From a virus, in the IMG/VR virus record IMGVR_UViG_3300028364_000058, positions 1-43,896 of that record: a stretch of 43,896 nt of DNA. One strand, written 5' to 3'. Each line of letters starts with the position of its first letter. Positions within the stretch are counted from its first letter, which is position 1. A program made the position numbers and the translations under genes. Under the pieces are notes generated by a model, which was not told the DNA's origin, searched no databases, and worked only from the letters and a program-made list of their open reading frames with translations. Shown here one piece after another: positions 1,440-38,045 of the stretch.

Positions 1440-1742
1440 TTAATTTGATGGTGTATAATCTTTAAGATATTGACGCACTTCTTTTGAGTAATCATCATTA
1501 TTAATTCCACCACCCACGCCTAAACCAAGAATAATACCATTAAAAAAATCGAACGGTGTCATGGTTTCCATATATTTTTTCTTTAAGGCATTAATTTCAT
1601 TAGATAGTTCAAATTTTTTGTTATCGTTATACGTTTCACCTTCTTGTTGATTTGGTTCACGACCGAACACCTCATTCGTTGGCATTCCAGCCACTTTGTG
1701 CATGGCTTCGAAAAGCATTTTCTTTGAATTGTCTTGTCCCAT
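1440..1742 (-). CDS. Small accessory protein, packaging-peptide family
   Basis: A 100-residue protein of unknown function. Its N-terminus (MGQDNSKKMLFEAMHKV, then a T-N-E) resembles the N-termini of the proteins at 10054 (MGQNKERLFEVMGRLDK), 1770 and 37626, which suggests a common capsid-targeting or processing signal. A Gly-rich hydrophobic stretch (FFNGIILGLGVGGG) lies near residues 65-80, and the C-terminal part is charged. It starts 27 bases after the stop of the gene at 1770-2504, so the two are probably co-transcribed from the late element at 2521-2529. No own promoter is seen. Confidence 0.65.
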   Translation of the reverse strand: MGQDNSKKMLFEAMHKVAGMPTNEVFGREPNQQEGETYNDNKKFELSNEINALKKKYMETMTPFDFFNGIILGLGVGGGINNDDYSKEVRQYLKDYTPSN

Positions 1743-1769
1743 TATTATTTTTATTACGTGGTTTTATTT

Positions 1770-2504
1770 TTATCTTCTTATTACCTGATTTAGTGGGATG
1801 TTATAACCATATGGGTCGATAACTGGCTTTCCGCTAACCCATACGATTTCCAACCAATCAGAGGTTTGTGGGTCACCTGAACCAAAGGCATCTCTGACTT
1901 TGGCAGCTTCTCCGTCATCACTTAACATGATTTCATATCCACCTGCATTTGAAAGCACATATACACCATGAGTTTCGAATTCTTCTTCCTGTTCTTCCTC
2001 TAATGCTCTTAAACGCTTTAATCTTTCACCCTCTTTTTCTGGGTCGTAAAAATCTTTACCACTTTTATAATTTTTATTTATCGCATCTGGGTCATAACCC
2101 GCAACATAACCACCAGAATCCGTTACACCACCCATTTGAGGTGTGTTATGAATGTTTTCACTTACTCCACCATATTTATCAACTAAGTCCTGATACATCA
2201 TAGAAGCCAATTCGCTTTCCTCGTCCTCGATGCCCTTGGACATTGGAGACGGTCTGAATTCCGATGTACTCAATGCCGAATACAGATTACTGTTTTGTCC
2301 ACCATGATAATCATTGGCAAACCAATAAATAGCGGATTCGATATCAAAATCGTCTTCAGTATGATATTTAGTTCTAAGAAATTCTTGCATTTCTTCTTTA
2401 CTGGGGTCATCACTAACTCGACTGCCACCCATTTCTTCATTTAATTGGGGTTTAAATGTTTTATCAAGACGTTGCATGACTTCATTAATTCTTTCTATGC
2501 TCAT
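1770..2504 (-). CDS. Accessory virion-like protein with packaging-type N-terminus
   Basis: A 244-residue protein, function unknown. Residues 1-25 contain INEVMQRLDKTFKPQLNEE, a close match to the N-termini at 10054 and 37626, ending in an L-N-E site typical for T4-type prohead protease cleavage. Next comes a conserved-looking segment (SAIYWFANDYHGGQ, then SNLYSALSTSEFRPSP, near residues 55-90), an acidic coiled segment (RALEEEQEEEFE) and a C-terminal part that reads like a small beta domain. It has a late-promoter element 16 bases upstream. I infer a protein packed into the head and possibly injected; this is not proven by the sequence. Confidence 0.7.
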   Translation of the reverse strand: MSIERINEVMQRLDKTFKPQLNEEMGGSRVSDDPSKEEMQEFLRTKYHTEDDFDIESAIYWFANDYHGGQNSNLYSALSTSEFRPSPMSKGIEDEESELASMMYQDLVDKYGGVSENIHNTPQMGGVTDSGGYVAGYDPDAINKNYKSGKDFYDPEKEGERLKRLRALEEEQEEEFETHGVYVLSNAGGYEIMLSDDGEAAKVRDAFGSGDPQTSDWLEIVWVSGKPVIDPYGYNIPLNQVIRR

Positions 2505-2520
2505 AACTGGAATATTTTCT

Positions 2521-2529
2521 ATAAATACG
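2521..2529 (-). promoter_or_regulatory. Late-promoter element (CGTATTTAT)
   Basis: Minus-strand copy, 16 bases before the ATG at 2504. It serves the two-gene unit 2504-1440. Confidence 0.65.
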
Positions 2530-2585
2530 CTGTAATTATAGAAAGTTCTGGCACGTATATTGCTTTTTAATTAAAAACACACATA

Positions 2586-3458
2586 ATGAAAAAAATATTC
2601 ACACTATTATTACTTACGCTTTTCGGTTTGGCTTTGATTGCACAAGACCGAGAACTTAGCGATTATGAAAAATACCACATGCAAAAAGAAGCCGAAATGC
2701 TTGCGGAAACCGATACAACTGATACCGATACGGTTGTGGTTGTTATCAGGGAAGAATCGAAGCCACAAGTCATTAACAACTACTATATCGACAATGAACC
2801 CGATATGCGTTTCAGATTGACATTTGGTTACAGATATCCGTATTACAGTCATTACTACGACCCTTGGTATTACGATTATGGTTATTATAACAGGTATTAT
2901 CCATATTATAGATACTCATATCGTCATAGCTACCACCCCAGATATTATTATGGATACAATCACTATTATCCAAAACATACCCATTACTATCCAAAACACG
3001 ATAGATATACGGCAACAAGCGCATTGAGTTCCAGACGAAATTATTATAAACCGTATACCAGAACCCATAGTAGTGGAACAATTAATAAACCTGTCACGAC
3101 ACGAAAGACCAGATATACTTCAACACATAATAAACCCAGAACACAGACAAGAGAAAGTTATAACAGACCCGTCACCAGTACCAGACCAATAAGTACAACA
3201 ACACGTACTCAATCACGTACAACTAGAAGCACGTATTCACGTCCGTCTACAAGTACTCGTAGTAGTTCTTCATATAGTAAACCAACACAAAGTCGTTCAA
3301 GTAGCTATGTTGCTCCGTCAAGAGCACCGTCAAGAAGTTATAGTGCTCCGTCAAGAAGCACAGCACCCACAAGGTCAAGTAGTGGTTATTCGAGAAGCAG
3401 TTCTTCTTCACGTGGAAGTGCGACCCGAAGCAGTTCCAGTAGCAGAGGCAGGAGATAA
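2586..3458 (+). CDS. Secreted Tyr-rich / Ser-Thr-Arg-rich low-complexity protein
   Basis: A 290-residue protein starting with a clear signal peptide (MKKIFTLLLLTLFGLALIA, predicted cut before QDRE; no lipobox Cys). After an acidic linker (TDTTDTDTVVVV) comes a Tyr/His/Pro-rich block near residues 75-145 (many YY, HYY and YYP units), then about 130 residues made mostly of Ser, Thr, Arg and Tyr with repeated SRSSS, APSR and TRPxS units. It is predicted to leave the cytoplasm of the host. Such architecture resembles secreted Bacteroidota cell-surface proteins more than virion parts. It lacks the late element, so it may be a lysogenic-conversion-style moron or an envelope modifier. No enzymatic motif is visible. 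Confidence 0.75.
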   Translation: MKKIFTLLLLTLFGLALIAQDRELSDYEKYHMQKEAEMLAETDTTDTDTVVVVIREESKPQVINNYYIDNEPDMRFRLTFGYRYPYYSHYYDPWYYDYGYYNRYYPYYRYSYRHSYHPRYYYGYNHYYPKHTHYYPKHDRYTATSALSSRRNYYKPYTRTHSSGTINKPVTTRKTRYTSTHNKPRTQTRESYNRPVTSTRPISTTTRTQSRTTRSTYSRPSTSTRSSSSYSKPTQSRSSSYVAPSRAPSRSYSAPSRSTAPTRSSSGYSRSSSSSRGSATRSSSSSRGRR

Positions 3459-3469
3459 TTGTTCTGCGT

Positions 3470-3706
3470 TCATAGTTGTATGTTATTATCTCTGGCGAAA
3501 TTCTGAACATATTTTTTCAGGTTTTCGATTATTTCTTGTTTTTCGAGTTTCTCATCTACGTTTTGTAGTGATAAATACAGGTCTTGAACAAACTCAAGAA
3601 GCTCGTCTTGTTTATTATAATTTGATTCAAACGTCAGGTCAATGACTTTGCCTTCTAATTCGGCAATCTTATCTTCAAGTTCGGCTATGCGTTCTTGCTC
3701 CGTCAT
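3470..3706 (-). CDS. Small coiled-coil protein
   Basis: A 78-residue, strongly charged protein. Residues 1-28 show clean heptads (IAELEDKIAELEGKVIDL), and the rest is predicted helical (EKLEKQEIIENLKKYVQNFA). No family is recognised. The gene converges on the secreted-protein gene, with 11 bases between stops. A Bacteroidota-type -7 element (TATTTTTG) ends four bases before the ATG, with TTG 20 bases further upstream, so the mRNA may be leaderless and made early. The start region is overlapped by a TTTCACA/TGTGAAA dyad. Function is unknown; it may be a regulator or a multimer-forming adaptor. Confidence 0.65.
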   Translation of the reverse strand: MTEQERIAELEDKIAELEGKVIDLTFESNYNKQDELLEFVQDLYLSLQNVDEKLEKQEIIENLKKYVQNFARDNNIQL

Positions 3707-3710
3707 TTCA

Positions 3711-3741
3711 CAAAAATAATCTAATTATGTGAAATTATCAA
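3711..3741 (-). promoter_or_regulatory. Host-type promoter, possibly leaderless
   Basis: On the minus strand, TTG, 20 bases, TATTTTTG, then TGAA and ATG. The transcription start would fall at or very near the ATG of the gene at 3706. An inverted repeat (TTTCACA at 3706-3712, TGTGAAA at 3728-3734) covers the -7 element and could be an operator. Confidence 0.5.
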
Positions 3742-3749
3742 GTATTTAT
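3741..3749 (+). promoter_or_regulatory. Late-promoter element (AGTATTTAT)
   Basis: Lies 16 bases before the preferred ATG at 3766. Its last T is within an ATG at 3748, so that earlier start would fall inside the promoter element and is not favoured. Confidence 0.65.
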
Positions 3750-3765
3750 GATAAACGAAATTGAT

Positions 3766-4314
3766 ATGAAAAATAAGATACTTATTGCTGATGACAATGC
3801 GATTAATTACCAACTATTGTCAGAAATTCTTAAAGATAAGGATATTGAATTATTGTGGGCGAAAAATGGTGAGGAAGCCGTTACGAAATACAAAGAAAAC
3901 CCCGACATTAAAATAGTGTTAATGGATATAAATATGCCAATAATGAATGGTAATCAGGCAGCGGATAAAATCAAAGAATTAAATAATGATGTTCCGATTA
4001 TCGGCATAACTGGCTGTTATGGAATGTCTATTAGTGGAACATCTCTTGACGAATGTCTATATAAACCAATAAGCGGGGGAGTATTATTGGATGTGATAGA
4101 TTGTCATGTCAAAAATTTATGTGATGAGTTATTGCAACGAGAATCAGAAAAAGAAAGTCTATGGGCAGAATCAGAAAAAGAATTGATACACGTTTTATCA
4201 GGTGTAGCTGAATTACTTAAAATGAGTGACAACATAAATAAAAATCAATTCAAAGAAATTGAGAATAAACTTAATGAGATTAAATCAGTGCTGAACCAAA
4301 AAAGTGGGAAGTAA
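3766..4314 (+). CDS. Response-regulator receiver (REC) protein
   Basis: A 182-residue protein with a full receiver domain: acidic pair D9-D10 (ILIADDN), phospho-acceptor D54 (VLMDINMP), T82 (IGITG) and K100 (LYKP). All residues needed for phosphorylation and switching are present. There is no DNA-binding output domain. Instead, a helical tail (near 120-175) contains W-A-ESEKE, then VLSGVAELL, which closely matches the tail of the membrane-anchored protein at 25855-26274. The start is placed at 3766 because the frame's earlier ATG at 3748 overlaps the late-promoter element and MKNKILIADD is the usual REC beginning. It probably receives phosphate from a host kinase or works as a phosphorylation-dependent adaptor; phage REC proteins are uncommon. 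Confidence 0.85.
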   Translation: MKNKILIADDNAINYQLLSEILKDKDIELLWAKNGEEAVTKYKENPDIKIVLMDINMPIMNGNQAADKIKELNNDVPIIGITGCYGMSISGTSLDECLYKPISGGVLLDVIDCHVKNLCDELLQRESEKESLWAESEKELIHVLSGVAELLKMSDNINKNQFKEIENKLNEIKSVLNQKSGK

Positions 4315-4332
4315 TGATATTGTGAACTTATA

Positions 4333-4341
4333 AGTATTTAT
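4333..4341 (+). promoter_or_regulatory. Late-promoter element (AGTATTTAT)
   Basis: Only four bases separate it from the ATG at 4346, the shortest spacing in the window. If it is a promoter, the message would be leaderless or would use a later start. Confidence 0.5.
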
Positions 4342-4345
4342 TGAT

Positions 4346-5024
4346 ATGAATATCATAGATATAATCAATGAAGAAATCGGTGCTACGCTTTTTGAGAACA
4401 TGGTATGGTTTCACGGCACACCCGATGCCAGAGAAGTGAAACAAACGGGATTCGCTCCCAGAACCAATACCACTGATTATATCATCGACCCCAAGAAATG
4501 GCACGAACTTCAAAGCCAGATGCAAGACGCACAAGCAGGGGTCTAATGAAGACCAGTATTTCCAACTCTTAGACCAAGCTGGTGAACTTAGAAAATCCAT
4601 GACATATAAGAAACCCATATATTTTACCAATAAAAGAGGTGTCGCCAGCACCTATGCCAACCCACATAGGTCATTGGATTATCAGGGTTCGGAGCCACAG
4701 GTCTTACAAGCAGAGATAGATGATAGTGGAAACGTCCTTAAAGTTCCAGCACATGATGAGAGATTTCGTGGAATTCCAGTGGAAACCGTAAGACAAGCAC
4801 TTCAGGGCACAGGTATTGGTGACGAAGAAATTAATAAGTATTTCGCCATGTTTCCCACGGAACTCCGAAAAGACAGAATGTCGGCAGAAACTCTGGCTAT
4901 AATAGCACAATTACTGGGATTTGATATCGTGGATGTGCTTGGAGTGCTGGATAGTTATCACGGGGGCACGGTTCAATCAAATGTCCGAATGGTATTCGAC
5001 CCCCAGAGAATAAAAATGCTTTAG
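4346..5024 (+). pseudogene. ADP-ribosyltransferase-like gene with one-base frameshift
   Basis: Two frames together encode one protein. The first (4346-4546) starts MNIIDIINEEIGATLFEN and runs through WFHGTPDAREVKQTGFAPR. The second frame resumes just after the GGGG run at 4538-4541 with SNEDQYFQLLDQAGELRKS and continues through PIYFTNKRGVASTYANP to the stop at 5022-5024. Removing one G from the run restores a single frame of about 225 residues. The order FHGT, then YFTN with A-x-x-YA, then a late beta strand (VRMVFDP) resembles ADP-ribosyltransferase-fold proteins of phages. The homopolymer makes a sequencing error as likely as a true mutation. The N-terminal peptide with L-F-E could be a capsid-targeting sequence. 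A late element precedes it. Confidence 0.65.
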
Positions 5025-5097
5025 TTGACCCACTAGGACTCGAACCTAGACTCTTCTGGACCAAAACCAGACGTGTTGCCAATTACACCATAGGTCA
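5025..5097 (-). tRNA. tRNA-Gln (TTG)
   Basis: Minus strand: acceptor TGACCTA/TGGGTCA, D arm ATGGTGTAATTGGCAACAC, anticodon stem TCTGG/CCAGA closing TTTTGGT (anticodon TTG), and T arm with loop TTCGAGT and a good five-pair stem CTAGG/CCTAG. The discriminator base is A. CCA is not encoded. The gene abuts the stop codon of the convergent frameshifted gene with no spacer. Confidence 0.9.
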
Positions 5098-5367
5098 ATA
5101 ATATAGAGTGGCGCAGTCTTCTTGTGACTTACTTTCAACGGAGTGTATGCCGTGACCACTCAATTACGGTTAACCAAATAACCACTACTTGAGTTCATCA
5201 AGTGTTTCGTAATCCTATTGTTTTGCAATTATACGAAAATAAATATAAATTGTTACAAAGAACTTTAAAATTGGTTGACCACATTTCATAATCCCAAATT
5301 ATGTATGTTACCTGATTACATCACATCCGCAATATTAAATTCAATATTTCAAAGAACTAAATTTTTG
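5098..5367. other. Non-coding gap between two tRNAs
   Basis: No coding frame is supported. Seen are a GAGTGG/CCACTC pair about 44 bases apart (5106-5162), a short ACTTGA/TCAAGT hairpin near 5190-5207 and a GTTAACC palindrome. These may be processing or spacer structures of a tRNA transcript; no RNA family is recognised. Confidence 0.3.
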
Positions 5368-5439
5368 TCTGGATGGTGCGAATCGAACGCACTACCCGAT
5401 GATTCCAATTCATCGTTGCTACCTTAGTCTCTCACCCAG
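5368..5439 (-). tRNA. tRNA-Pro (TGG)
   Basis: Minus strand: acceptor CTGGGTG/CATCCAG, anticodon stem GATGA/TCATC closing ATTGGAA (anticodon TGG), perfect T arm GTGCG-TTCGATT-CGCAC, discriminator A. The D loop has the expected GG, but the D stem pairs weakly. CCA is not encoded. Confidence 0.85.
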
Positions 5440-5455
5440 CTTTTCAACCACAAAC

Positions 5456-5486
5456 AAAAAAACCCCACTCTTTTCAGAATGGGGTT
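5456..5486 (-). terminator. Rho-independent terminator
   Basis: Seven-base-pair hairpin AACCCCA/TGGGGTT followed by a seven-T run on the minus strand. It lies between the micro-ORF at 5518-5592 and tRNA-Pro, matching the layout at 1156-1189. Confidence 0.8.
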
Positions 5487-5517
5487 CGTGTTTAACCTAA
5501 AACTTCGTTTCGAAAAA

Positions 5518-5592: not shown

Positions 5593-5615
5593 CGTCTATG
5601 AATATTAATACTTTG

Positions 5616-5959: not shown

Positions 5960-5968
5960 AGTATTTAT
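5960..5968 (+). promoter_or_regulatory. Late-promoter element (AGTATTTAT)
   Basis: Followed by 20 bases and the GTG start at 5989. Confidence 0.65.
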
Positions 5969-5988
5969 AAAAAATAGAATTAGGAAAC

Positions 5989-10003: not shown

Positions 10004-10041
10004 AGTATTTATGAAAAATGATTAAATAATCACGTATTTAT
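10004..10041 (+). promoter_or_regulatory. Two tandem late-promoter elements
   Basis: AGTATTTAT at 10004-10012 and CGTATTTAT at 10033-10041. The second ends 12 bases before the ATG at 10054. Confidence 0.7.
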
Positions 10042-10053
10042 AAAAACTATATT

Positions 10054-10404
10054 ATGGGACAAAACAAAGAAAGACTTTTTGAAGTAATGGGTAGACTAGA
10101 TAAAACGTTCAAACCCAAAATGAATGAAGAACTCGAAATTGTCGGAACAAACGATGATAGCGAAGTACCTACTGAAATCGGTGGTGAGGAAATGCCTGTT
10201 GAAGAAAAATATGAAGAACTCAAAGAAAAGGTTGGGGAACTCTATGCAATGATTAACGGTGAAGAAGGTGAGGAAGAACTGGAAGCTGAACCTGAAATCG
10301 GTGGTGAAGAAATACCAGTTGATGAACCTGAAATCGGTGGTGAAGAAGGTGAAGATGAAATTGAGTTGGGTGAAAGTAAAAAAATAAGGAGTAAAATCCG
10401 TTAA
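10054..10404 (+). CDS. Acidic repeat protein with packaging-type N-terminus
   Basis: A 116-residue, very acidic protein. The N-terminus (MGQNKERLFEVMGRLDKTFK, then P-K-M-N-E) is the clearest member of the shared peptide family. After it come three repeats built on EIGGEE, each followed by a variable M/I-PV-E or GEDE segment, and a short basic end (KKIRSKIR). Proteins of this kind could be internal head components whose N-terminal peptide is removed at a (M/L)-N-E site. The next gene starts four bases after its stop. Function is inferred only from the shared N-terminus. Confidence 0.7.
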   Translation: MGQNKERLFEVMGRLDKTFKPKMNEELEIVGTNDDSEVPTEIGGEEMPVEEKYEELKEKVGELYAMINGEEGEEELEAEPEIGGEEIPVDEPEIGGEEGEDEIELGESKKIRSKIR

Positions 10405-11731: not shown

Positions 11732-14257
11732 ATGGCAAAACATAAAAGCGAAGAAGCGTTTAACGCAAGAATGAGACAGTTAGCTAATATTGGCGGGACT
11801 TCATCATTGAAAGAATCTAACTCATTAGGTGAATTAATCGATGTTAAGCGTACTGCTGACGGTGTTGCTTATGGCATCGTGAAAGAAAATCATCAGTATT
11901 ACATAAAAAAAGGTGGGTTGAGAGAAAATCCAAGTGTTGCGGATTTCGCATATATTGGTGGTTTATCAAACATAACCGAACATCAGTACCCATCACTTTC
12001 GACAGCGGATAAAAATAGAAATTTTCTGCTTGCAACCATTAACGAGTCGCTTTCAACTAAGGTAAGTAAGACAGGTAGTAAGAAAGAAGTTCTGAATGAA
12101 GATAATGCTGAAAAAGAAATTGCTGCTGCAAGTAAAAAGGTTGATGATTTGGAAGCAGCTACCGATGCTGCTACCGTTGCCGATGTTCCTTCAGAACCTG
12201 TAGATGATGGTGGTGAGGAAGAAATGGCTGCTGGAATCGAAGACATGCCAACAGATGAACCCGCTCCTGAAGGTGGTGAAGAAGCACCTGCTCCAGAGGT
12301 AGGTATTGATGTAGCACCAGAAGATGGTGAGGAAGCACCCGATGGCGATGAGGTGGATGCTCCAGAAGGTGGTGAAGAAGACATAGACGCTGCACCAGAA
12401 GATGGCGAAGAAGAAGAAAGTACTGGCATTGGTAATTTAAGTGATTCTCTAATGGATAAAATTGGAAGTGCTGCTGATGAAATTAGGAAAGAAAATATTG
12501 ATGCCACTGGAACCGCATGGCTTCTCGGAACTTTTTTATCTGCCTTTAAAGGCAGTGATGACGACCCATCGAATAATAAATTCAGAGAATTGGGTGAAAA
12601 AGAAAGAGAAGAATATGCTGATATGATTCAAAACGTTACCAGTGATGAGGAAAAAGCAAGTGTAGCGGATACAGTCCCACAAGATGGTGATGAAGAAATG
12701 GAAGAGGGTGAAAAATGTAGTGAATGCGGTGGATTTAAAGAATATGCTGAAGCCAGAGGTTATACCTCTGAATCCCTTATGGAATGTGGAGACGAAGAAA
12801 TGGCTAACCTTATGAGTGGATATGCGAATGCACATGGTGAAGGTCAAAATGACGGTGATTTTCAAATAGTTGCGCTTCTCGCCACACCTGAAATTCTTGA
12901 AAAACTCAAATCGGAATACGGGCACGAGGAATTCGCAGGACAAGTCGAACCAATAGCAACTGGAATGGATGACGAAACCAAAGAAGCCGAACTCAATGAA
13001 TTATTTGGTGGTCTTAAAAATTTGGGTAAAGCTGCTGGACAAGGTATTAAACAGGGCGCACAAAATCTTGGACAAAATATTAGTGATAAGGCTGGTCAAG
13101 TTAAACAAGCTGTTGGACAAGCAGCAACTAATGTGAAACAAACATATCACGCAGGTGAACTTGGGGGTGAGGTAAAGAAACTCGAAAAAGCTGCTGCTAA
13201 TTTAGGAGGTCAAGTCGATTCTCTTAATAAGAGAATGCAAAAAGCTGGTGGTCAACCAGTTAATCTTCAAAGTATTTTAACTACCATTAAAAATCAAGTT
13301 GGTGGTGCTAAAGGTGTAGACCTTAGTAAATACGGTAGTGTTCAAGAGGAAGGACCTGAAGTTCCCACGGATAGTCTCGAAGTTCAACCTAATATGGTTG
13401 AGAGTTCTGATGATGTTAAATCGGAAGAAGATTTCAAAGAATATGCTATAACAGTTTTGAAAAAAGCACATGGTGAGGATTACGATACCGATAAAGCTGA
13501 ATACATGATTAAGGGTTTGGTTAATATGACGAAAGCCAGTGATGAAGAAAATTGGGGTGATGCAATCGGTATTCTACAACAATCTCTTGATGAATCACTT
13601 GAAGAGGCTGTTGATATCAAAGTCAGTGAGAAAGAAGGTAAGAAACTCAGTGCCGAGAAAGCACCTGAAGTCGAAATGAAAGAAGGCGAAGAAAAATTTG
13701 AAATCGGTGCAGGTTTTGATTCAATGGGTGGTGCGGTTGTAAAACCAGAAAGTGTTCCTGTTACAGAAGCCGAAATCAAACTCAGAAAATATATTCGTAA
13801 TAGACTCGAAGAAAAAGCTGGTATGAGGAAACCAGTGTTGAATGAAAACAAGAAATCCGAAACCCTTTTGAAACTCGATAGAGTTATTGATAAGCAACTC
13901 GGATTGTTTGAAAATGCAGCGATGAACGAAATAATGGGTTTCAGTGTAAGAGAAAAATTCAATAAAATGAACCCCAACGACCCAAGTCAGGTTGAACAAC
14001 TTTTTAATAAAACGTTCAACGATATTCTCACTAATCCTCAAATGGGTGCAATTGCAAGAGCAGCTAAAACCACACCAACGGAAACCAAATACGAAATACT
14101 GAAACAGTATGTGGATAACAACGGTGGGACTCTAAGACTTGCTGACCGTGATACTATAAGATACGCAACACGGCAAGAAAAAAATACCGCAACACCAAGT
14201 GCTTTCACTCAAGGTGGAACTCAAGGTAGAACCCAATGGGGTGGTACGGCAGGATAA
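11732..14257 (+). CDS. Large acidic virion/core protein (structural, unknown)
   Basis: An 841-residue protein with no recognised enzyme motif. It begins MAKHKSEEAFNARMRQLANI with an S-L-K-E soon after. Residues 130-235 form a very acidic Gly/Pro/Glu repeat (PEGGEEAPAPEV, PEDGEE units). A Cys pair (C-SEC-G) lies near residue 330. A Gly/Gln/Lys-rich helical stretch with GQAATNVKQ follows (residues 430-480). The C-terminus has a K/R/E-rich helical module ending in VLNENKKSE. The position just before the terminase, the acidic low-complexity linkers and several L-x-E sites make an internal head or portal-associated protein plausible. The link to any named T4 protein is not established. Confidence 0.6.
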   Translation: MAKHKSEEAFNARMRQLANIGGTSSLKESNSLGELIDVKRTADGVAYGIVKENHQYYIKKGGLRENPSVADFAYIGGLSNITEHQYPSLSTADKNRNFLLATINESLSTKVSKTGSKKEVLNEDNAEKEIAAASKKVDDLEAATDAATVADVPSEPVDDGGEEEMAAGIEDMPTDEPAPEGGEEAPAPEVGIDVAPEDGEEAPDGDEVDAPEGGEEDIDAAPEDGEEEESTGIGNLSDSLMDKIGSAADEIRKENIDATGTAWLLGTFLSAFKGSDDDPSNNKFRELGEKEREEYADMIQNVTSDEEKASVADTVPQDGDEEMEEGEKCSECGGFKEYAEARGYTSESLMECGDEEMANLMSGYANAHGEGQNDGDFQIVALLATPEILEKLKSEYGHEEFAGQVEPIATGMDDETKEAELNELFGGLKNLGKAAGQGIKQGAQNLGQNISDKAGQVKQAVGQAATNVKQTYHAGELGGEVKKLEKAAANLGGQVDSLNKRMQKAGGQPVNLQSILTTIKNQVGGAKGVDLSKYGSVQEEGPEVPTDSLEVQPNMVESSDDVKSEEDFKEYAITVLKKAHGEDYDTDKAEYMIKGLVNMTKASDEENWGDAIGILQQSLDESLEEAVDIKVSEKEGKKLSAEKAPEVEMKEGEEKFEIGAGFDSMGGAVVKPESVPVTEAEIKLRKYIRNRLEEKAGMRKPVLNENKKSETLLKLDRVIDKQLGLFENAAMNEIMGFSVREKFNKMNPNDPSQVEQLFNKTFNDILTNPQMGAIARAAKTTPTETKYEILKQYVDNNGGTLRLADRDTIRYATRQEKNTATPSAFTQGGTQGRTQWGGTAG

Positions 14258-17528: not shown

Positions 17529-19517
17529 ATGGCAGGGGAAAAACAAAATAATGGAACGATATACCAACAATTAAATCAGATGTTGAATCTTGATGGTATG
17601 TCTTTTCAAGACGATACATCGGTTGCATCAATTACAAGTCCTCAAAAGGAGAAAATAGTCATTAAGGGTAGAACCCCTGAAGAAATTCATAAAAAGGGAC
17701 TTGAAATTCAACAAAAAAAGGAACTTCAAAACAAGTTCTTCAGAACCACAGACAGAGGTTTTCAAAAAGCACTACAATATGAGGCAGCACGACTTCCAGC
17801 TTACATTGATTATGAGGGAATGGAATACTATCCAATTATTTCTTCAGCATTGGATTTATTCATGGAAGAAGCCACAACCATTGGTTTAAACGGTAAGATG
17901 TTAAATATTTATTCGAGTAAGGAAAGAATTAAAACCCTGTTAGAAGAATTTTTCTATGATACTGTAAATGTAAATGTTAACCTGCCTTTCTGGACGAGAA
18001 ACGTTTGTAAATACGGTGATAATTTTGTCCTGCTTTACGGTGAAAGAAAAAAAGGTATTACGCATGTAAAACAACTTGTTAATTTTGAAATCGAAAGATT
18101 TGAAAGAATTAAAGATGGTAAACCGCTTGTACGATTCAAGGAAAGAATGACAGGTGATGAATTTAATGTGTTCGAAATCGCACATTTTAGATTACTTGGT
18201 GACGATAAGTATCTACCCTATGGTTCATCAATACTTAATAAAATCAGGAGAGTTTTTCGTCAACTTGTTATGGCAGAGGATGCCATGCTAACTTATCGTA
18301 TAGTTCGTGCAGGTGAGAAAAAAGTGTTTAAAATAGATGTTGGTAATATCGATGAAGATGATATTGAGGAATATATTTACAAGGTGGCAACCACTTTCAA
18401 AAAGAGTGCACAGGTTCAACCAAATGATGGGCAAATCGATTACAGATTCAATGTTCTCGGTAATGACGAAGATTACTTCCTTCCCGTTAGAAATGCCAAT
18501 ACTCAGACTGGTATTGAAACACTCCCCGGGGCTCAAAATCTCAATGATATTCATGACATCGAATATCTTCGTGATAATTTATTTGTTGGACTTGGTGTAC
18601 CTAAACCGTTTCTAAGTTTTCAAGATGCTGCTGGTGGTGGAAAAAATCTGGCTCAATACGATATCAGATTCTCTAAGAAAATAAATCGTATCCAGCAATC
18701 TATGGTTCAAGAACTCAATAAAATGGCAATGATTCACCTGTATTTATTGGGTTATACTGGGGAAGACCTTAATAGTTTCACGATAACACTTACGAATCCA
18801 AGCACACAACAGGAACTTCTGAAATCAGAATTGATGCGTGATAAAGCACAAACCTATACCGAACTCACACGTGGTGAAGCAGGTATAGCTGCAATGTCTC
18901 ACACTCAGGCAAAACGCATGATATTTAATATGAGTGATAAGGAAATTGTTGATGACCTTAAGCAACAGAAAATGGAGAAAGTTGTTATGCAGGAACTTCA
19001 GGATTCTCCAGTATCGATAAAAAAATCGGGTCTTTTTACTGATATCGATAAGAGATTTGGTGCTCCCATTGAGGATATGGAAATGACTAGCGGTACTGGT
19101 GAAGAAGGTGGAATGCCACCTGAAGGCGGTGCACCTGCTGCTGGTGGTGCTCCACCTATTGGTGGTGATATGGGTAGTGCTCCACCTATTGGTGGTGCTC
19201 CCGCTGGTGATATGGGTGCTGGTGGAGCACCTATGATGGAAAATCGTGGTCTCACTGAAGAAGAATATAACAACCACATAAATAAACTGGTGTACGGTAA
19301 GAAAAAGAATGATGACGATGATGATGAAAGTTTTGAAAGAGATATAATTCAGGAAAACCATAAGAAAAACAAGCTGTTAAATAAAAACGCTGAAAGAATG
19401 GTCGAGGAAATCGATTCACTTATTGAGAATTCCAAATCCTTGAACAAATCAGATGAAAAAGACGAATTACATGATATTAATATTGACGACATCGAAAATA
19501 TTGAATTTGACGAATAA
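17529..19517 (+). CDS. Portal protein (T4 gp20-like)
   Basis: A 662-residue protein. The core (residues about 50-500) has the T4-type portal order: a wing domain with DYEGMEYYPIISSALDLFM, the FERIKDGKP segment, and a clip/stem region (AEDAMLTYRIVRAGEKKVF), then GVPKPFLSFQDAAGGGK. Twelve copies would form the DNA entry ring of the head and dock the terminase and neck. The C-terminal tail (from about residue 525) is unusual: a Gly/Pro/Ala repeat tract with two near-identical APPIGG units, then an acidic run (DDDDDE) and a helical end. This tail is probably disordered inside or outside the ring. Confidence 0.9.
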   Translation: MAGEKQNNGTIYQQLNQMLNLDGMSFQDDTSVASITSPQKEKIVIKGRTPEEIHKKGLEIQQKKELQNKFFRTTDRGFQKALQYEAARLPAYIDYEGMEYYPIISSALDLFMEEATTIGLNGKMLNIYSSKERIKTLLEEFFYDTVNVNVNLPFWTRNVCKYGDNFVLLYGERKKGITHVKQLVNFEIERFERIKDGKPLVRFKERMTGDEFNVFEIAHFRLLGDDKYLPYGSSILNKIRRVFRQLVMAEDAMLTYRIVRAGEKKVFKIDVGNIDEDDIEEYIYKVATTFKKSAQVQPNDGQIDYRFNVLGNDEDYFLPVRNANTQTGIETLPGAQNLNDIHDIEYLRDNLFVGLGVPKPFLSFQDAAGGGKNLAQYDIRFSKKINRIQQSMVQELNKMAMIHLYLLGYTGEDLNSFTITLTNPSTQQELLKSELMRDKAQTYTELTRGEAGIAAMSHTQAKRMIFNMSDKEIVDDLKQQKMEKVVMQELQDSPVSIKKSGLFTDIDKRFGAPIEDMEMTSGTGEEGGMPPEGGAPAAGGAPPIGGDMGSAPPIGGAPAGDMGAGGAPMMENRGLTEEEYNNHINKLVYGKKKNDDDDDESFERDIIQENHKKNKLLNKNAERMVEEIDSLIENSKSLNKSDEKDELHDINIDDIENIEFDE

Positions 19518-25738: not shown

Positions 25739-25752
25739 GTATGATTTTTCAT

Positions 25753-25761
25753 ATAAATACC
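25753..25761 (-). promoter_or_regulatory. Late-promoter element (GGTATTTAT)
   Basis: Minus strand, 14 bases before the ATG at 25738. It lies within the longer frame that starts at 25765 and so supports the shorter protein. Confidence 0.65.
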
Positions 25762-25808
25762 TCACATTAAAAAATATAAAAATATTCTCTTTTTATTGGA
25801 TACTTTGG

Positions 25809-26427: not shown

Positions 26428-27132
26428 ATGAGTAAGATATTACATGCGGGAGACACGGGTTTCGGTATTCTCATAGAACATGATGCGGGTTTCGTAACCA
26501 ATGAAACCGATAAAGGTATTCTGAATGAAAATTTTGAATTAAAACCTAATGAACCTGTGCTTATTAATTGTATTCTACAGAAATGGGGCGTAAAAAATAA
26601 AAACGGTCGTATCTACCCCCAAGATGTATTATTACAACAAGTAAATGAATACCAAAACCAAATCCAAAACAACAGTGCGGTTTCAGAAGCCGACCATCCC
26701 GACAGTAGTATCATTTCATTACAGAATATCTCACACATGATAACCAAGATATGGTGGGGAACAGGTGAAAAGGAAAATATTTTATACGGACAATTAAAAC
26801 TCATCGTTTCTCCCGGTTACATCAACATGGGAATAGTGTCGGTTATTGGTGATAAAATAGTATTGTACCTCCAGAATAAAATAAGACTTGGAATTTCCAG
26901 TCGTGGTGTGGGTACATTAAAGGAGATAAACGGTGAAAATCTTGTTCAAGACGATTTCGAATTAATTGGTTTTGACCTCGTTGCGACTCCAAGTACCCCG
27001 GGTGCTTATCTATTCCCTGAACAAAAGGGAGATACATCATTTACTGAGAATTATGTGAAGAAAAACGGAATATATCTTAAAGAGAATGAGGATAATAAGG
27101 TTAATTCGGCATTAAATAGGTTCTTGTTATAA
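26428..27132 (+). CDS. Prohead protease (T4 gp21-like)
   Basis: A 234-residue serine protease of the T4 gp21 / herpesvirus assemblin-type fold. Key features: NKNGRIYP near 58-64, catalytic His in SEADHP (H90), and catalytic Ser in LGISSRG (S157 or S158). The FDLVATPSTPGA motif near 187 closes the fold. The enzyme matures the prohead by cutting capsid, core and packaged proteins after (L/I)-x-E. Its place between the core genes and capsid gene is the usual T4-like order. The N-terminus has I-L-N-E near residue 31, a possible self-cleavage site. Confidence 0.93.
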   Translation: MSKILHAGDTGFGILIEHDAGFVTNETDKGILNENFELKPNEPVLINCILQKWGVKNKNGRIYPQDVLLQQVNEYQNQIQNNSAVSEADHPDSSIISLQNISHMITKIWWGTGEKENILYGQLKLIVSPGYINMGIVSVIGDKIVLYLQNKIRLGISSRGVGTLKEINGENLVQDDFELIGFDLVATPSTPGAYLFPEQKGDTSFTENYVKKNGIYLKENEDNKVNSALNRFLL

Positions 27133-27266: not shown

Positions 27267-28859
27267 ATGACAAAAGAAAAAAAGACATCTGTAATTAAAG
27301 AAGCGGTTGCCGAGTATAAAGAACTCATGGAAGCTGCCAGTGCTAATGCTAAGAAAAAATTAGCTGATGAATTTCCTAATGAATTCAATAAACTATTGAA
27401 AGAGGAAATCGATAATAAAAATAAACCCAAAAAAGAGTCTTATAAAAAAATTGACGAGGGTAAAGAGTCTGACAAAGACGATGTTGGAACAAACAAAGAA
27501 TCTGTTATGAAAAATGAAAAAGAGACCAAGAAGGTCGTAAAAGAAGAAGAAGGTAAAACTAAGAAAGTTAGTAAACCTTTTGAAGAAAAAGCTCCTGAGA
27601 ACGGTCCTGATGTAGTGAAAGAGGAACGTGATAAGGATTTCATGGGAGATATCGAAACCGATACTCCTAATAAAGCGGATGGCAAAACCGAAGACGGTGA
27701 TACATTCGTAGAAGAACCAACTACTAAGAAAGAGAGTCTCGCAAATGATACTCAAATCAAGGAAGAGTTCGACATAACAGAACTTGATGCAAACAGTGTA
27801 GGTATTGCATTAGAAAATGCTGAAGAAGAAGACGAAGTTATCACTATGGATGAAATCGAAAGTGAAATCGCCAACATTGAGGGTCTCGATGAAGACCTTT
27901 CTGCTGGTGCTGATGCCGATAAACCCAAAGCTGGTAAGGACGATGGAATTGCTTACGACAAACTCGTTAACATGAAAAACCAAATCGATGAAATGCTCTC
28001 AGCAATTGGTGAGCAGAAAAATAATGGTGGACAAGGTGCAAACAAAGTAAACATGGGCGGACCGACCACTGCTATGATTGATGAGGAAGAAGATGAGGTT
28101 TACGAGCAAAAAAATCAGGGTGGTAAGCAAAGCATACCGGGTCGTGAAAAGGGTGGTCCTACTCAACAAATGGTTGATGAGGAAGATGAGGAAATCACTC
28201 GTGATGATGTTGAAGCCGTTTTAGGTGGTGAAGTGAATGAGGAAGAGGTTGATGAAAACCTCGAACATACTCAAACACATCACAACGCAAGAAAAACTGG
28301 TTCCCATAACCATACCAATTATGGTAAAGAGAACAGATTGCGTGACGCAATGAAAAACGAAGGCGAAGACAAGAAGATTGGTAGTTTAATTAAAGAAAAC
28401 AAAGAATTAACTAAGAAGTTAAACGAAACCAAGAAATATAAGCAATCCGTAACGACTTTAGTTGAGCAGTACAAAGATGCACTCGGAAAGTATCGCAATC
28501 AATTAAAGGAAATGGCTATTTTCAACAGTAATTTGGCACACGTCAATAACTTACTGGTAAATGAAAGTCTGTCATTAACCCAAAAAGATAAAATTAGTAT
28601 CATCAACGAATTTAAGAAGGTGAATACTATTGCTGAATCACAGGAAAGGTACAAGTCTATCCTCACTGAAATGAAGAAAGACAAAAGGACTTTAACTGAA
28701 AATCTTGAAGATAAGGTGAGTGCTTCCGTTGCACCTTCTTCAAAGAAACTTGACGAAGCAAAAGAAGTTACCGCTTACGAAAACAATGAGCACATCAATA
28801 AAATGAAGAAGCTCATTGAGACTATCGAAGGCAGAGGAAGCAAAAAAATAATTAAGTAA
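27267..28859 (+). CDS. Scaffold / prohead core protein (T4 gp22-like)
   Basis: A 530-residue, extremely charged protein. The N-terminal third is Lys/Glu-rich; the middle is acidic and low in complexity (for example EEEDEVITMDEIESEIAN, and two copies of a GGPT-x-x-MxDEE unit near 270-305). A His-rich HTQTHHNARKTGSHNHTN stretch follows. The C-terminal 150 residues form coiled coils (LIKENKELTKKLNETKK). Position between protease and major capsid gene, size and helical acidic nature fit the T4 gp22-type scaffold, although sequence identity cannot be judged. Several L-x-E sites (LTE, LLKEE) would allow removal by the protease. It is longer than T4 gp22. Confidence 0.75.
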   Translation: MTKEKKTSVIKEAVAEYKELMEAASANAKKKLADEFPNEFNKLLKEEIDNKNKPKKESYKKIDEGKESDKDDVGTNKESVMKNEKETKKVVKEEEGKTKKVSKPFEEKAPENGPDVVKEERDKDFMGDIETDTPNKADGKTEDGDTFVEEPTTKKESLANDTQIKEEFDITELDANSVGIALENAEEEDEVITMDEIESEIANIEGLDEDLSAGADADKPKAGKDDGIAYDKLVNMKNQIDEMLSAIGEQKNNGGQGANKVNMGGPTTAMIDEEEDEVYEQKNQGGKQSIPGREKGGPTQQMVDEEDEEITRDDVEAVLGGEVNEEEVDENLEHTQTHHNARKTGSHNHTNYGKENRLRDAMKNEGEDKKIGSLIKENKELTKKLNETKKYKQSVTTLVEQYKDALGKYRNQLKEMAIFNSNLAHVNNLLVNESLSLTQKDKISIINEFKKVNTIAESQERYKSILTEMKKDKRTLTENLEDKVSASVAPSSKKLDEAKEVTAYENNEHINKMKKLIETIEGRGSKKIIK

Positions 28860-28879: not shown

Positions 28880-30577
28880 ATGGGATTTTTAACTGAAAGT
28901 GCGGATGTTGGTAATATTGGATTAAAACAACTCCGTGAACAAAGAGAAATAACAACAAACCGTTGGGAAAAAATCGGTCTGTTAGAAGGATTAGATGGAA
29001 ACGTAAAAGAGAATTGCGCACAGCTTTTCGAAAACCAATTGTCACACATGATTAACGAATCTTCGGATTCAACAAACAGTGGACAATTTGAAACCGTTGC
29101 TTTTCCTGTAATCCGTAGAGTATTTGCGAAATTACTCGCAAACGACATCGTGTCTGTACAGGCACTCAACTTACCTATTGGTAAGCTGTATTACATCAAT
29201 CCAAAAGCAAGCGTTAGAGTTGACTCTACTACCCCTAATTGGTCAGAACAAGCTGGTGGTGTTCATACTTCACCTGATGGTGCATATGGAAACGCTGCTG
29301 ATAAAGCTGCTGGCGCAAGAACTCAGTTCGAAGAGCGTTCATTATATGACGCATTCTATGCAACTCAGTACGATGAAGAAGGAACTTCATTATTTGACCG
29401 TTCAAAAGGCGACATCACTGTTGTTACTGGTGCTACTACAGCACAAACTTGGACAAATGGTGTTGATAAATTCATCGAAGTTCATGTAGGTGGAATTTAT
29501 AGCACTTCTGAAGGTAAATTGGTCGGACCAACTGGTGTTCCTATGGATACCGAGTCTTTCCTTGCTGGACTAAAAGTTGTTGCTGACACAGCATTCAACG
29601 CTCCTTCACCTTACACAGAGGAAAGCAAAGCTGCTGGCGAAAATCTTCCTTTCAATGTTAAGGTACAGAAGTACGGACAAGCTATTGTTAATCAAGATGG
29701 AGTTCTTAAAATCTTAGTTGACATACAATATGCTGGTGCTGGTGGATATCAGGCTATGAGTGCTGCTACTAGTGGAGTTACTTTCACTGTTACATACAGA
29801 ACATATTCAGACCTTGAAGAAGATTCAAGAATGGCTGAAGTTACATTCCAATTAGACCAAGTTACTGTTTCTGTTGAAACACGTAAAATGCGTGCTATGT
29901 GGACACCTGAATTGGCACAGGACGTGTCAGCATTCCATAACATTGACGCTGAAGCTGAATTAACTGCTTTATTGTCAGAGCAAATGGCTGCTGAAATCGA
30001 CCGTGAAATTCTTCGTGACCTCCGTAGAGGCGCAGCTTGGACTGCACGTTGGGATTACAACGGACTCCGTAAGCAACCTAGTGGTGGCGCATATTATGGT
30101 GTACAGAAGGACTGGAATCAGACGTTGGTTACTAAAATCAACCAGATTTCAGCACAAATTCACAAGGCAACCCTCCGTGGTGGCGCATCTTGGGTAGTTG
30201 TATCTCCTGAAGTATCTGCTGTATTTGATGACCTCGAATACTTCCACGTAAGTAATGCTGCTCCTGAACAGGATAAGTATAACATGGGTATTGAAAAAAT
30301 CGGTACTCTTAGTGGACGTTACTTGGTATACCGTGACCCTTATGCTCCCGCTAATACAGTATTAGTTGGACACAAAGGAACAAGTATCCTTGAGACCGGT
30401 TACATTTACGCTCCTTACGTACCTATGCAGTTAACTCCTGTAATGTATAATCCATTCGATTTCACTCCGATTCGTGGTATCATGACTCGTTATGCTAAGA
30501 AAATGGTATTGAACCGTTACTATGGTAGAATCTACTGTGATGGTCTTCAGACTTTCGGTATTGGTGACTTACAATAA
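28880..30577 (+). CDS. Major capsid protein (T4 gp23-like)
   Basis: A 565-residue HK97-fold capsid protein. The region FETVAFPVIRRVFAKLLAND near residue 70 and LNLPIGKLYYINPK are typical of gp23 homologs. The N-terminal 60 residues are helical and end in HMINE followed by SSD: the I-N-E site near residue 60 is a good candidate for maturation cleavage, giving a mature protein of about 505 residues. Later segments (ELAQDVSAFHNIDAEAELTA and the C-terminal YGRIYCDGLQTF) also fit the family. No promoter is seen in the 20-base gap from the scaffold gene, so the two are co-transcribed. Codon use looks more optimised than in neighbouring accessory genes. Confidence 0.95.
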   Translation: MGFLTESADVGNIGLKQLREQREITTNRWEKIGLLEGLDGNVKENCAQLFENQLSHMINESSDSTNSGQFETVAFPVIRRVFAKLLANDIVSVQALNLPIGKLYYINPKASVRVDSTTPNWSEQAGGVHTSPDGAYGNAADKAAGARTQFEERSLYDAFYATQYDEEGTSLFDRSKGDITVVTGATTAQTWTNGVDKFIEVHVGGIYSTSEGKLVGPTGVPMDTESFLAGLKVVADTAFNAPSPYTEESKAAGENLPFNVKVQKYGQAIVNQDGVLKILVDIQYAGAGGYQAMSAATSGVTFTVTYRTYSDLEEDSRMAEVTFQLDQVTVSVETRKMRAMWTPELAQDVSAFHNIDAEAELTALLSEQMAAEIDREILRDLRRGAAWTARWDYNGLRKQPSGGAYYGVQKDWNQTLVTKINQISAQIHKATLRGGASWVVVSPEVSAVFDDLEYFHVSNAAPEQDKYNMGIEKIGTLSGRYLVYRDPYAPANTVLVGHKGTSILETGYIYAPYVPMQLTPVMYNPFDFTPIRGIMTRYAKKMVLNRYYGRIYCDGLQTFGIGDLQ

Positions 30578-32532: not shown

Positions 32533-32733
32533 TTATCTTTTACATTTACAAAATTTAATGAACCCTATAGGTTCGTAGGGACTTGCTCTTCTATCAATCT
32601 GTAAACCACACTTTGGACATGGTTGATTAAAACCCATTCCAAGTTGACTTAAATCATAAGGGTTTCCATTGCTTCGATATTTTTTCTTAGCATTCAACAA
32701 CTTACGATATTCAGTTTTATTAACTCTCATCAT
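32533..32733 (-). CDS. Small zinc-ribbon-like protein
   Basis: About 66 residues when started at the double ATG at 32733/32730, which overlaps the end of the helicase gene by a few bases. It has C-P-K-C-G near the middle and F-C-K-C-K at the C-terminus, a likely zinc ribbon, with a basic N-terminal helix (MMRVNKTEYRKLLNAKKKY). Binding to nucleic acid or to the helicase is possible but not shown. A longer frame from 32748 exists, but its first codons lie in the helicase gene. Confidence 0.6.
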   Translation of the reverse strand: MMRVNKTEYRKLLNAKKKYRSNGNPYDLSQLGMGFNQPCPKCGLQIDRRASPYEPIGFIKFCKCKR

Positions 32734-35852: not shown

Positions 35853-35856
35853 AAGA

Positions 35857-35886
35857 CAAAGATATGATAATCTTTTGAAAACTAAA
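35857..35886 (-). promoter_or_regulatory. Host-type promoter, possibly leaderless
   Basis: Minus strand TATCTTTG at 35864-35857, then TCTT, then ATG. The -33 side is imperfect (GTTT near 35884-35887). It is back-to-back with the late element at 35909, so the two transcripts diverge. Confidence 0.55.
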
Positions 35887-35908
35887 CCATTTTTTAAAAA
35901 TTTTTTTC

Positions 35909-35917
35909 AGTATTTAT
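35909..35917 (+). promoter_or_regulatory. Late-promoter element (AGTATTTAT)
   Basis: 12 bases before the ATG at 35930. Confidence 0.7.
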
Positions 35918-35929
35918 TAGAAAACAATC

Positions 35930-37048
35930 ATGGCATTAATTAGCGTAGCGGAAAAAAATAAACTATTTCTTAAAGTCAAACATGAACTAGGTTTCCCTCT
36001 TCGTCCGTTTGAAATCAAGGACGAGATGATGGACTCCTATTTAGAAATGGTTATTGAAGATTATTCGTCACTGGTGAATAACTGGATGATTCATCAGCAA
36101 TGGGTTGGTCTGGAAGGTCTGGGCAAAGAAACAGGAGACTTTCTCGCTGCTTTCACCAATAGGTCTAACACATATATGGAGAAATTCACATATGCATATT
36201 CAAGGCAAGTTGGATTAGGTACTAATGCACCTGCTTCGCCCGGTTGGGAACTCAAACGTGATTACATCGTAACATCCGCACATACTCAACACTATATTAT
36301 TCCTGCTGGTCGTGAAGTGAATGAAGTTCTTTGGGAAACACCACCACCTATTGATGGTGGTCTCGTTGACCCTTTCGCTCTTAATGCTTGGAGTGCTGGT
36401 ATGATGGGTATGTCTTATCTCGGAAGACCTGCATTATATGTTCAACCGACATTCTCAACATTACTTAGTGCTCAAGACAGAAGAATGAAACAAAGAGTGT
36501 TGCAATCCATACTTACTTATCGTATCACGGGTCTGGAAACAGGTGAGAAGATGTTACACCTGTACCCCGCACCAAATGACCGCCATGAAATCGCTGCTTC
36601 ATGGGGTAAGCATTATAGTGGTAGAAAGGTATGGTATTGGTACTATGATACATTAAATGTCGACAGAGAAAAATGTCTTCAGGAAAACGAAGACGTGGTT
36701 AGACTACCCAGTGACCCACCAATAGACATCCTGAAATGGGAAGACGTTAATGACCCCGCACGTCAGCAAATCAGAAATCTTTTAATTGCCAAGGTGAAAA
36801 TGGTAATTGGTGGTATCCGAGGATTTTACAGTGGTGAACTTGGTGTCGCTGAAAAACAGTTGACTATGGATTATCGTCATCTGCTCGATGAAGGCACTAA
36901 ACTAAAAGAAGACACTGAAAAAGTGGTTCTCGACCTACTTGAAAAACTTAGTCAAGACAAGCTCGTTGAAGAACGTGCGAGAATCGCTGAGAACGTTAAT
37001 AGAGAACGTGGTTATCAACCACCTATGTTCCCAATAATTCCGATTTAA
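35930..37048 (+). CDS. Neck / head-completion protein (T4 gp13-like)
   Basis: A 372-residue protein. N-terminus ISVAEKNKLFLKVKHELGFP, then FEIKDEMMDSYLEMVIEDYS, and the later HLYPAPND and YSGELGVAEKQLTMD are reminiscent of T4-type gp13 neck proteins, which close the portal after packaging and join the tail. Trp/Tyr-rich stretches (KVWYWYYDTLN) fit a structural role. The next gene overlaps its stop by one base (TAATG), so the two neck genes are coupled. A late element lies 12 bases upstream. Identification is by overall pattern and position. Confidence 0.75.
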   Translation: MALISVAEKNKLFLKVKHELGFPLRPFEIKDEMMDSYLEMVIEDYSSLVNNWMIHQQWVGLEGLGKETGDFLAAFTNRSNTYMEKFTYAYSRQVGLGTNAPASPGWELKRDYIVTSAHTQHYIIPAGREVNEVLWETPPPIDGGLVDPFALNAWSAGMMGMSYLGRPALYVQPTFSTLLSAQDRRMKQRVLQSILTYRITGLETGEKMLHLYPAPNDRHEIAASWGKHYSGRKVWYWYYDTLNVDREKCLQENEDVVRLPSDPPIDILKWEDVNDPARQQIRNLLIAKVKMVIGGIRGFYSGELGVAEKQLTMDYRHLLDEGTKLKEDTEKVVLDLLEKLSQDKLVEERARIAENVNRERGYQPPMFPIIPI

Positions 37049-37599
37049 TGAAAAAGAAAAAGCAAATAGAGAATATTCAGGATGACAGGATGGGTTTATT
37101 TATGTCGGATAATAGTTTTGATTTAGATGTGATGTACGGCAGAAACTTTCTGCAAACCGATAACGCACAAAAAGTCAAGATACATAAAATCAATATCATC
37201 GACACTAAAACCCATGACTTATATGGTCAGGCAAAAACCAAAGACAAGAAGTTCATGTCACCTGTGGAAATAAGTGTTATGGTGAATATCGAAGCCAGTG
37301 CACAATCGTATTACGGTGATAATGCTGGTGGTATTAGTCGTGACGACACAGGTAATCTGATTTTCGGTGTATACCTTAAAGAGCTTGATGAAAAGCAATT
37401 GGAAGTCGATAGAGGTGATATCGTAGAATATAATATGAGTGGTGAAAAGAAAAGATATTACGAAATAGAAAACGCCAACAATGTCACTGATGAAACTCAG
37501 AAAACCATCGGTGGGTTCAAAAGTTATTGGAAACGAGTTAGTGCTGTTCCAGTTAAAGAAGACGTTGTTCCATTCTTGAGTGAAACAAAAGGATTTTAA
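37048..37599 (+). CDS. Neck protein (T4 gp14-like, tentative)
   Basis: A 183-residue protein directly coupled to the gp13-like gene. Segments RNFLQTDNAQKVKIHKINI, MSPVEISVMVNIEASAQSYY and a C-terminal VVPFLSETKGF resemble gp14-type neck proteins, which form the connector with gp13. The protein is beta-rich and lacks Cys. Assignment rests mainly on context. Confidence 0.6.
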   Translation: MKKKKQIENIQDDRMGLFMSDNSFDLDVMYGRNFLQTDNAQKVKIHKINIIDTKTHDLYGQAKTKDKKFMSPVEISVMVNIEASAQSYYGDNAGGISRDDTGNLIFGVYLKELDEKQLEVDRGDIVEYNMSGEKKRYYEIENANNVTDETQKTIGGFKSYWKRVSAVPVKEDVVPFLSETKGF

Positions 37600-37601
37600 T
37601 G

Positions 37602-37610
37602 AGTATTTAT
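37602..37610 (+). promoter_or_regulatory. Late-promoter element (AGTATTTAT)
   Basis: 15 bases before the ATG at 37626. A longer frame from 37599 would place the element inside the coding sequence and is not preferred. Confidence 0.65.
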
Positions 37611-37625
37611 AATAAATTTAATAAT

Positions 37626-38045
37626 ATGGCAACAGTTAATAGCAAACAAAGACTTTTCGAGGTCATGAGTAAAGTAGATAAGACATTCAAATTAAATGAA
37701 AGTGTTGATAACATGAATGTAAAGCCTCTTGATGAAGCAGGTAGAAATGAGGCTAATAAGAACTACACACATTTTGCGGTTCTAAAAAACATTGCACCTG
37801 AAGTTGATGGTCAAATTGTTAATGGTTGGGACTATAGAGGGTATGACCCTACGGAATTACGTCAATTTAAAAAAGATTATTTCTTTAACGATATGGCAGA
37901 TAATCAAATTAATCCGAAAAATATTAATGTTGTTACATCAAAATATTTACAACGTAGTGGCATAAATCCATTTAGTTTTGATTTCTGGTTTCTACCCCAA
38001 AAACCTGAAAATCAAAAATATGTTGATTTGATTTATACTGTGTAA
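37626..38045 (+). CDS. Accessory protein with packaging-type N-terminus
   Basis: A 139-residue protein. The N-terminus (MATVNSKQRLFEVMSKVDK, then T-F-K-L-N-E-S) is another clear copy of the shared peptide, with an L-N-E site. The rest is Asn/Tyr/Phe-rich (YTHFAVLKNIAPEVDGQIV, then YDPTELRQFKKDYFFND, then a helical Arg/Ser part). No family is recognised. It likely belongs to the packaged-protein group. The start at 37626 avoids the overlapping promoter element. Confidence 0.7.
   Translation: MATVNSKQRLFEVMSKVDKTFKLNESVDNMNVKPLDEAGRNEANKNYTHFAVLKNIAPEVDGQIVNGWDYRGYDPTELRQFKKDYFFNDMADNQINPKNINVVTSKYLQRSGINPFSFDFWFLPQKPENQKYVDLIYTV

Follow-up and report, generated by a model that had tools for sequence, protein, structure and literature searches.

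One N-terminal peptide on many unrelated proteins of uncultured T4-like viruses: a probable capsid-targeting propeptide

Several otherwise dissimilar proteins encoded in the 43.9-kb IMG/VR virus record IMGVR_UViG_3300028364_000058 (the window, meaning this whole stretch of DNA) begin with nearly the same peptide. What is such a shared beginning for? A first-pass annotation proposed a capsid-targeting signal (CTS) like the one that brings internal proteins into the head of phage T4. The peptide, termed the tag here, extends well beyond the window: in a family of large uncultured bacterial viruses, dozens of unrelated proteins begin with one tag of ~25 residues. We consider the tag a probable capsid-targeting propeptide with the function of the T4 CTS and an unrelated sequence.

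The first-pass annotation had described a common N-terminal peptide on the proteins starting at 2504 (-), 10054 (+) and 37626 (+) and a weaker form at 1742 (-), and both descriptions hold. The strict motif R-[LI]-[FN]-E-V-M-x-[KR]-[VL]-D-K-T-F-K has exactly three matches in the six-frame translation of the window (at 2492 (-), 10072 (+) and 37650 (+)), each at the N-terminus of an open reading frame (ORF), where composition predicts 3e-11 matches. The tag of the 1742 protein, MLFEAMHKVAGMPTNE, scores low with the general tag model, yet it nearly equals a variant that recurs in relatives (KQMLFEMMHKVAGMPLNE; for example QMLFEMMHKVAGMPLNE) and is the variant seen in the tags of relatives L113, L135 and L136; we therefore count it as a true, diverged member. 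The remainder of the four proteins is unrelated, as had been claimed, with a best BLASTP match between bodies that is not significant (E = 0.11). Genes 2504 and 1742 adjoin on the same strand, 1742 coming after 2504 with a 27-nt gap, and likely form one operon. Translation of the 37626 gene probably does not begin at the upstream ATG at 37599; the start at 37626 is favoured because the promoter-like GTATTTATA overlaps the 37599 region, 23 nt before 37626.

The spread of the tag was followed by searching a 22-sequence alignment against 40 whole related T4-like viral records that carry the major capsid protein (MCP) of the window. Matches are present in 33 of these records, with a maximum of 11 in one record of 328 kb. 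The 115 distinct tagged proteins extracted from them fall into 37 body groups without detectable mutual similarity; groups were joined transitively (some members have one domain in common), so that the figure of 37 is an approximation and more likely too low than too high. In all 271 ORFs scoring at least 20 bits, the tag starts no more than 12 residues from a Met, and an internal tag was never found. Record L063 gave no tag match, and a de novo search for shared N-termini there uncovered a diverged tag ending in LKE; this was the only common N-terminus recovered by that search from the tag-less records. Scanned with the tag, IMG/VR yielded 79 loci, and most of the other contigs tested from it lack the MCP and are probably fragments. 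Bacterial genome contigs, searched without the broader tag alignment, contained no confirmed match. Neither the literal motif nor an earlier description of the tag was found in the literature searched, a body of work that excludes most subscription journals.

Anchored counts define the tag core as [SN]-K-[QE]-R-L-F-E-[VM]-M-x-[KR]-[VLI]-[ND], which is amphipathic at 100 degrees (mean moment 0.60 vs 0.35 for shuffled sequences). This helix leads into a linker, variable in both sequence and length, and then, usually, into (L/I)NE. An AlphaFold2 model of the 37626 protein (mean predicted local distance difference test score 71) has a helix at residues 6-17, a low-confidence stretch at 23-36 and a separate folded body. 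(L/I/M)NE occurs no more than 15 residues after the helix core in 67 of the 115 proteins, compared with 4.2 in shuffles; when each body group is represented by one protein, the count is 15-18 of 37 vs about 1. Body group 3, the HExxH proteins, keeps (L/I)NE in 11 of 11 members despite widely differing linker length, and within the 37626 family LNE is the point beyond which members diverge by large insertions. Among proteins with unrelated bodies, the ratio of nonsynonymous to synonymous change (pN/pS) is 0.28 for helix codons and 1.15 for body codons. The tags use six codons for Leu and ten spellings of LNE, and this synonymous variation, together with the low pN/pS, indicates that the peptide itself is under selection. 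A beta-clamp-binding peptide (QRLF) was rejected as the identity of the tag because of wrong spacing and implausible cargo.

Taking the T4-type CTS as the working type, we looked for a gp21-type protease, a scaffold and a gp23-type MCP, and the window encodes all three, the scaffold being labeled from gene position and sequence character only. The prohead protease that the first-pass annotation placed at 26428 is supported by PHROG 207 (E = 4e-39) and by the T4 gp21 structure 5jbl (E = 2e-11), and in its relatives [LI]xE is retained close to each end. The presumed scaffold (27267) contains 21 (L/I/M)xE sites and has no PHROG match. In MCP relatives, M(I/L)NE followed by S or A is located near residue 60; (I/L)NE is present in all but one of the relatives compared (LKE), and one relative retains INE despite a two-residue insertion. 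T4 gp23 has LTE, followed by A, at 63-65, close to this position. Because (I/L)NE persists where the MCP propeptide is expected to end and the protease keeps [LI]xE near both of its ends, (I/L)NE is plausible as the cleavage signature of this virus group.

Other features of the head genes were also recorded. The C-terminus of the presumed scaffold, SSKQKLDEVVEK, was tried as a look-alike of the tag core; its best match reaches 2.7 bits and it is not used as evidence. The presumed core protein at 11732-14257 (+), together with L063 18050 and L232, opens with a second kind of helix and LxE (SEEAFNARMRQLANIGGTSSLKE), ending in LKE in the 11732 protein, which is possibly a different head signal. 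A 1783-aa ORF (20414-25765, -) with a C-terminal GH25 lysozyme-type domain lies on the opposite strand within the head gene cluster. A GIY-YIG homing endonuclease gene directly follows the MCP gene, and a homing endonuclease gene also directly follows tagged gene 37626 (homing endonuclease loci 30675-32171 and 38349-39656).

The element GTATTTATA is positioned before tag genes mostly at -21 to -25. In the related records it is found upstream of the scaffold (60/63), the protease (53/62), the core-like 19599 gene (37/39) and the tag genes (54/115), and before only 1 of 26 DnaB/RecA/RNR genes of the same records. For tag genes vs DnaB/RecA/RNR, Fisher p = 1.3e-5, a value that serves only as a guide given that the sequences are related and not independent. 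The MCP gene has no such element and sits directly behind the scaffold gene. The reverse complement of GTATTTATA contains TATAAATA, which we take to be the T4 late consensus. We infer that GTATTTATA represents a late-promoter class common to tag and head genes.

The tagged bodies include Pfam matches to the ART-PolyVal ADP-ribosyltransferase PF18760 (E = 4e-8), AAA_33 P-loop kinases, Cupin_2 and GP88, as well as DUF5661, DUF4313 and DUF3293. The HExxH proteins have sub-threshold metallopeptidase matches. The acidic group of window protein 10054 (body group 1, with 14 distinct members in relatives) shares only its size and charge with T4 gp67. The body of the 2504 protein has a GENIHNT/SENIHNT stretch in common with a tagged protein of L011/L009, and the fold of the 37626 body has no match in PDB. 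PADLOC identified no convincing defence proteins among the cargo.

How do these features compare with known systems? T4 gp21 cleaves after (L/I)-x-E, and targeting by the N-terminal peptide of IPI-III is proven (PMC9026906). In the T4 record, used as a positive control, IPI, IPII and IPIII have MKT(Y/F)(Q/K)EF in common, then IAE or ITE; in IPIII the IxE at residues 8-10 (IAE-10) is cut. Like the T4 CTS (IPI, IPII, IPIII and Alt), the tag is a short peptide that opens proteins with nothing else in common, usually with (L/I)xE nearby, and it likewise accompanies a gp21-type protease, a T4-like MCP and an ADP-ribosyltransferase among the cargo. Unlike the T4 peptide of 10 residues, it spans about 25 as helix plus linker, its P2 residue is nearly always Asn and some tags lack a site; T4 has a handful of bodies whereas 37 unrelated body groups are seen here, with targeting predicted from sequence. 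Comparison by eye with the IPI/II/III peptide finds nothing alike beyond a charged start and LxE, and the tag is filed as CTS-like in function and not as a member by descent. Inner-head and ejection proteins of SPN3US and phiKZ also have N-terminal propeptides that are cut after Glu by a gp21 homologue and for which a targeting role was proposed (PMC5694885). However, those are mostly 111-254 residues long (PMC10052503), have another cleavage motif (AxE examples, PMC5694885), and no single short tag recurs there across many unrelated proteins. Polyvalent proteins share the ART-PolyVal cargo, and packaging and injection of such effectors were predicted (PMC5512222), but there many effector domains reside in one polypeptide, whereas here separate proteins carry one address peptide.

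The proposal of a capsid-targeting signal is strongly and independently supported in part, by a strictly N-terminal tag, selected as protein, on 37 unrelated bodies, with enriched (L/I)NE, a protease with a matching MCP site and the promoter class of head genes; LNE is not universal, and kinship with the T4 peptide is not supported. Binding to the core, cleavage, location in the virion and injection are inferred and would proceed as follows. Late in infection, tagged proteins would be made alongside scaffold and protease, and the amphipathic tag helix, whose consensus is KQRLFE[VM]Mx[KR][VLI][ND], would dock on the prohead core. Closure of the shell would trap the cargo inside. The gp21-type protease would then cut behind the tag, in most cases at the (L/I)NE that closes the flexible linker, and perhaps at LFE in the helix as well. 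The tag would depart, and the freed cargo would remain with the DNA, some of it to be injected.

Several points weigh against this reading. The expectation that the L-N-E end fits (L/I)-x-E holds strictly for two of the four window tags (2504 and 37626, LNE); those of 10054 and 1742 close with MNE and TNE. In 18 of 111 tags, the 18 residues that follow the helix core contain no (L/I/M/V)xE; the tags of the ADP-ribosyltransferase and of the five kinases are all among these. Conservation of LNE could be due partly to descent, and the cupin and GP88 cargo have no obvious early-infection role. About half of the tag genes lack a nearby GTATTTATA match; genes without their own element likely sit in operons. 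Finally, the tag was found in no cultured phage searched (INPHARED by tblastn plus four related cultured or huge-phage records).

The site of cleavage bears on one variant that overlaps with the preferred reading. The first-pass annotation expected the cut directly after L/M-N-E, which could be one of two possible sites, because the helix core has an LxE of its own, the nearly invariant LFE. If LFE were the main site and LNE secondary, targeting would be as in T4 IPIII. LxE is found in the helix of 110 of 111 tags at a T4-like distance from Met, also where LNE is missing, although the count is partly circular, as LFE helps define the tag. Moreover, conservation runs past LFE through the M, K/R and V/L/I positions, so that the cut would split the binding helix in two, and P1' would be V or M. 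We give this variant a small but real chance. An uncleaved docking peptide is an unlikely alternative; here the tag would attach to some part of the virion (the MCP interior, the portal or the tail) and remain on the mature protein, with LNE incidental. The roughly one in six tags without an LNE-type site would fit, as would a helix that is the most conserved part beside a varying linker; however, LNE is strongly enriched over unrelated bodies and outlasts linker changes, and both a gp21-type protease and a matching site in the MCP are present.

Some cargo enzymes (kinase, cupin and metallopeptidase-like) could plausibly act inside the cell, which would also suit a tag that leads not to the head but to another late complex or place, such as the transcription or replication machinery, the membrane or an assembly site. 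Yet the promoter class of the tag genes is that of scaffold and protease and not of replication genes, such an address has no need for LxE after the tag, and T4 is a direct precedent for head targeting; we regard this explanation as distinctly improbable. Lastly, recombination could spread a mobile 5' module of promoter and gene start in which the peptide itself is functionless. Promoter and tag do occur together in about half of the genes, and bodies are swapped at the tag end. Nevertheless, the low pN/pS, the many synonymous codons and the retention of LNE in variable linkers point to selection on the peptide, and many genes carry the tag without the promoter, which makes this the kind of explanation we would hardly expect to be true.

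Relatives of the MCP are encoded in many IMG/VR records of up to 365 kb. The nearest annotated cultured relatives by MCP, at about 40% identity, are Flavobacterium immuto phages and Microcystis phage Mel-JY01; the tag is absent from both, Mel-JY01 having a weak partial match only. Among genome contigs, the MCP is present in three, all in metagenome-assembled genomes (MAGs) of Bacteroidota, and on this basis the host is probably a member of Bacteroidota, a hint only in view of the binning caveat for MAG contigs. Elsewhere in the window, a UvrD/SF1 helicase ORF (32720-35116, -) has an apparent in-frame intein (GDAHQ/CQPNGSKILMSDGTEK ... VADGILTHN/SIYGF) with a weak Hom_end_hint match. A thymidylate synthase ORF (40174-41787, -) is split after HAWRNFGG by an in-frame insertion with HNH-endonuclease similarity; Rfam detects no group I intron at the gathering threshold. 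Five tRNAs are predicted on the minus strand (125-5439), three of them tRNA-Asp(gtc), two of those with low Rfam scores. Coordinates of the tag, head and promoter features are collected in Table 1.

Table 1. Tags, tagged bodies, head genes and promoter-like elements in the window
Feature	Position	Strand	Remarks
Tag 1, MSIERINEVMQRLDKTFKPQLNE	2436..2504	-	N-terminus of 244-aa protein 1770-2504; model score 44.6 bits
Body of tagged protein 2504, function not assigned	1770..2435	-	
Tag 2, diverged, MGQDNSKKMLFEAMHKVAGMPTNE	1671..1742	-	
Body of tagged protein 1742, function not assigned	1440..1670	-	
Tag 3, MGQNKERLFEVMGRLDKTFKPKMNE	10054..10128	+	
Acidic body of tagged protein 10054	10129..10404	+	Body group 1
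Tag 4, MATVNSKQRLFEVMSKVDKTFKLNE	37626..37700	+	
Folded body of tagged protein 37626	37701..38045	+	Body group 2
Presumed core protein, 841 aa, acidic	11732..14257	+	Late-like promoter
TerL	15397		Window
Portal protein	17529..19517	+	Head context
Prohead (head maturation) protease, T4 gp21-like	26428..27132	+	PHROG 207, 5jbl matches
Presumed scaffold/prohead core protein	27267..28859	+	Between protease and MCP as in T4
MCP, T4 gp23-like	28880..30577	+	
Candidate MCP propeptide cleavage site, INE (residues 58-60) before S	29051..29059	+	
GTATTTATA late-promoter-like element	2520..2528	-	24 nt before start 2504
GTATTTATA late-promoter-like element	10034..10042	+	Before 10054
GTATTTATA late-promoter-like element	37603..37611	+	23 nt before 37626

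Judged from the sequences, the tag is most likely a new and widespread sequence type of capsid-targeting propeptide. If true, this would be a second, apparently independent signal for loading proteins into a phage head, and the tag would be a sequence-readable label of head-carried, probably injected proteins, a class otherwise known only through proteomics of a few cultured phages. We hold it somewhat better than an even bet that an uncultured T4-like phage group, many of its members jumbo-sized and probably infecting Bacteroidota, loads no fewer than 37 mutually unrelated families of proteins (enzymes, acidic core proteins and unknowns) into the capsid via one universal, exchangeable 25-residue tag, which would then predict delivered proteins from sequence alone. 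Uncultured jumbo phages would thereby provide dozens of candidate early effectors without assigned function.

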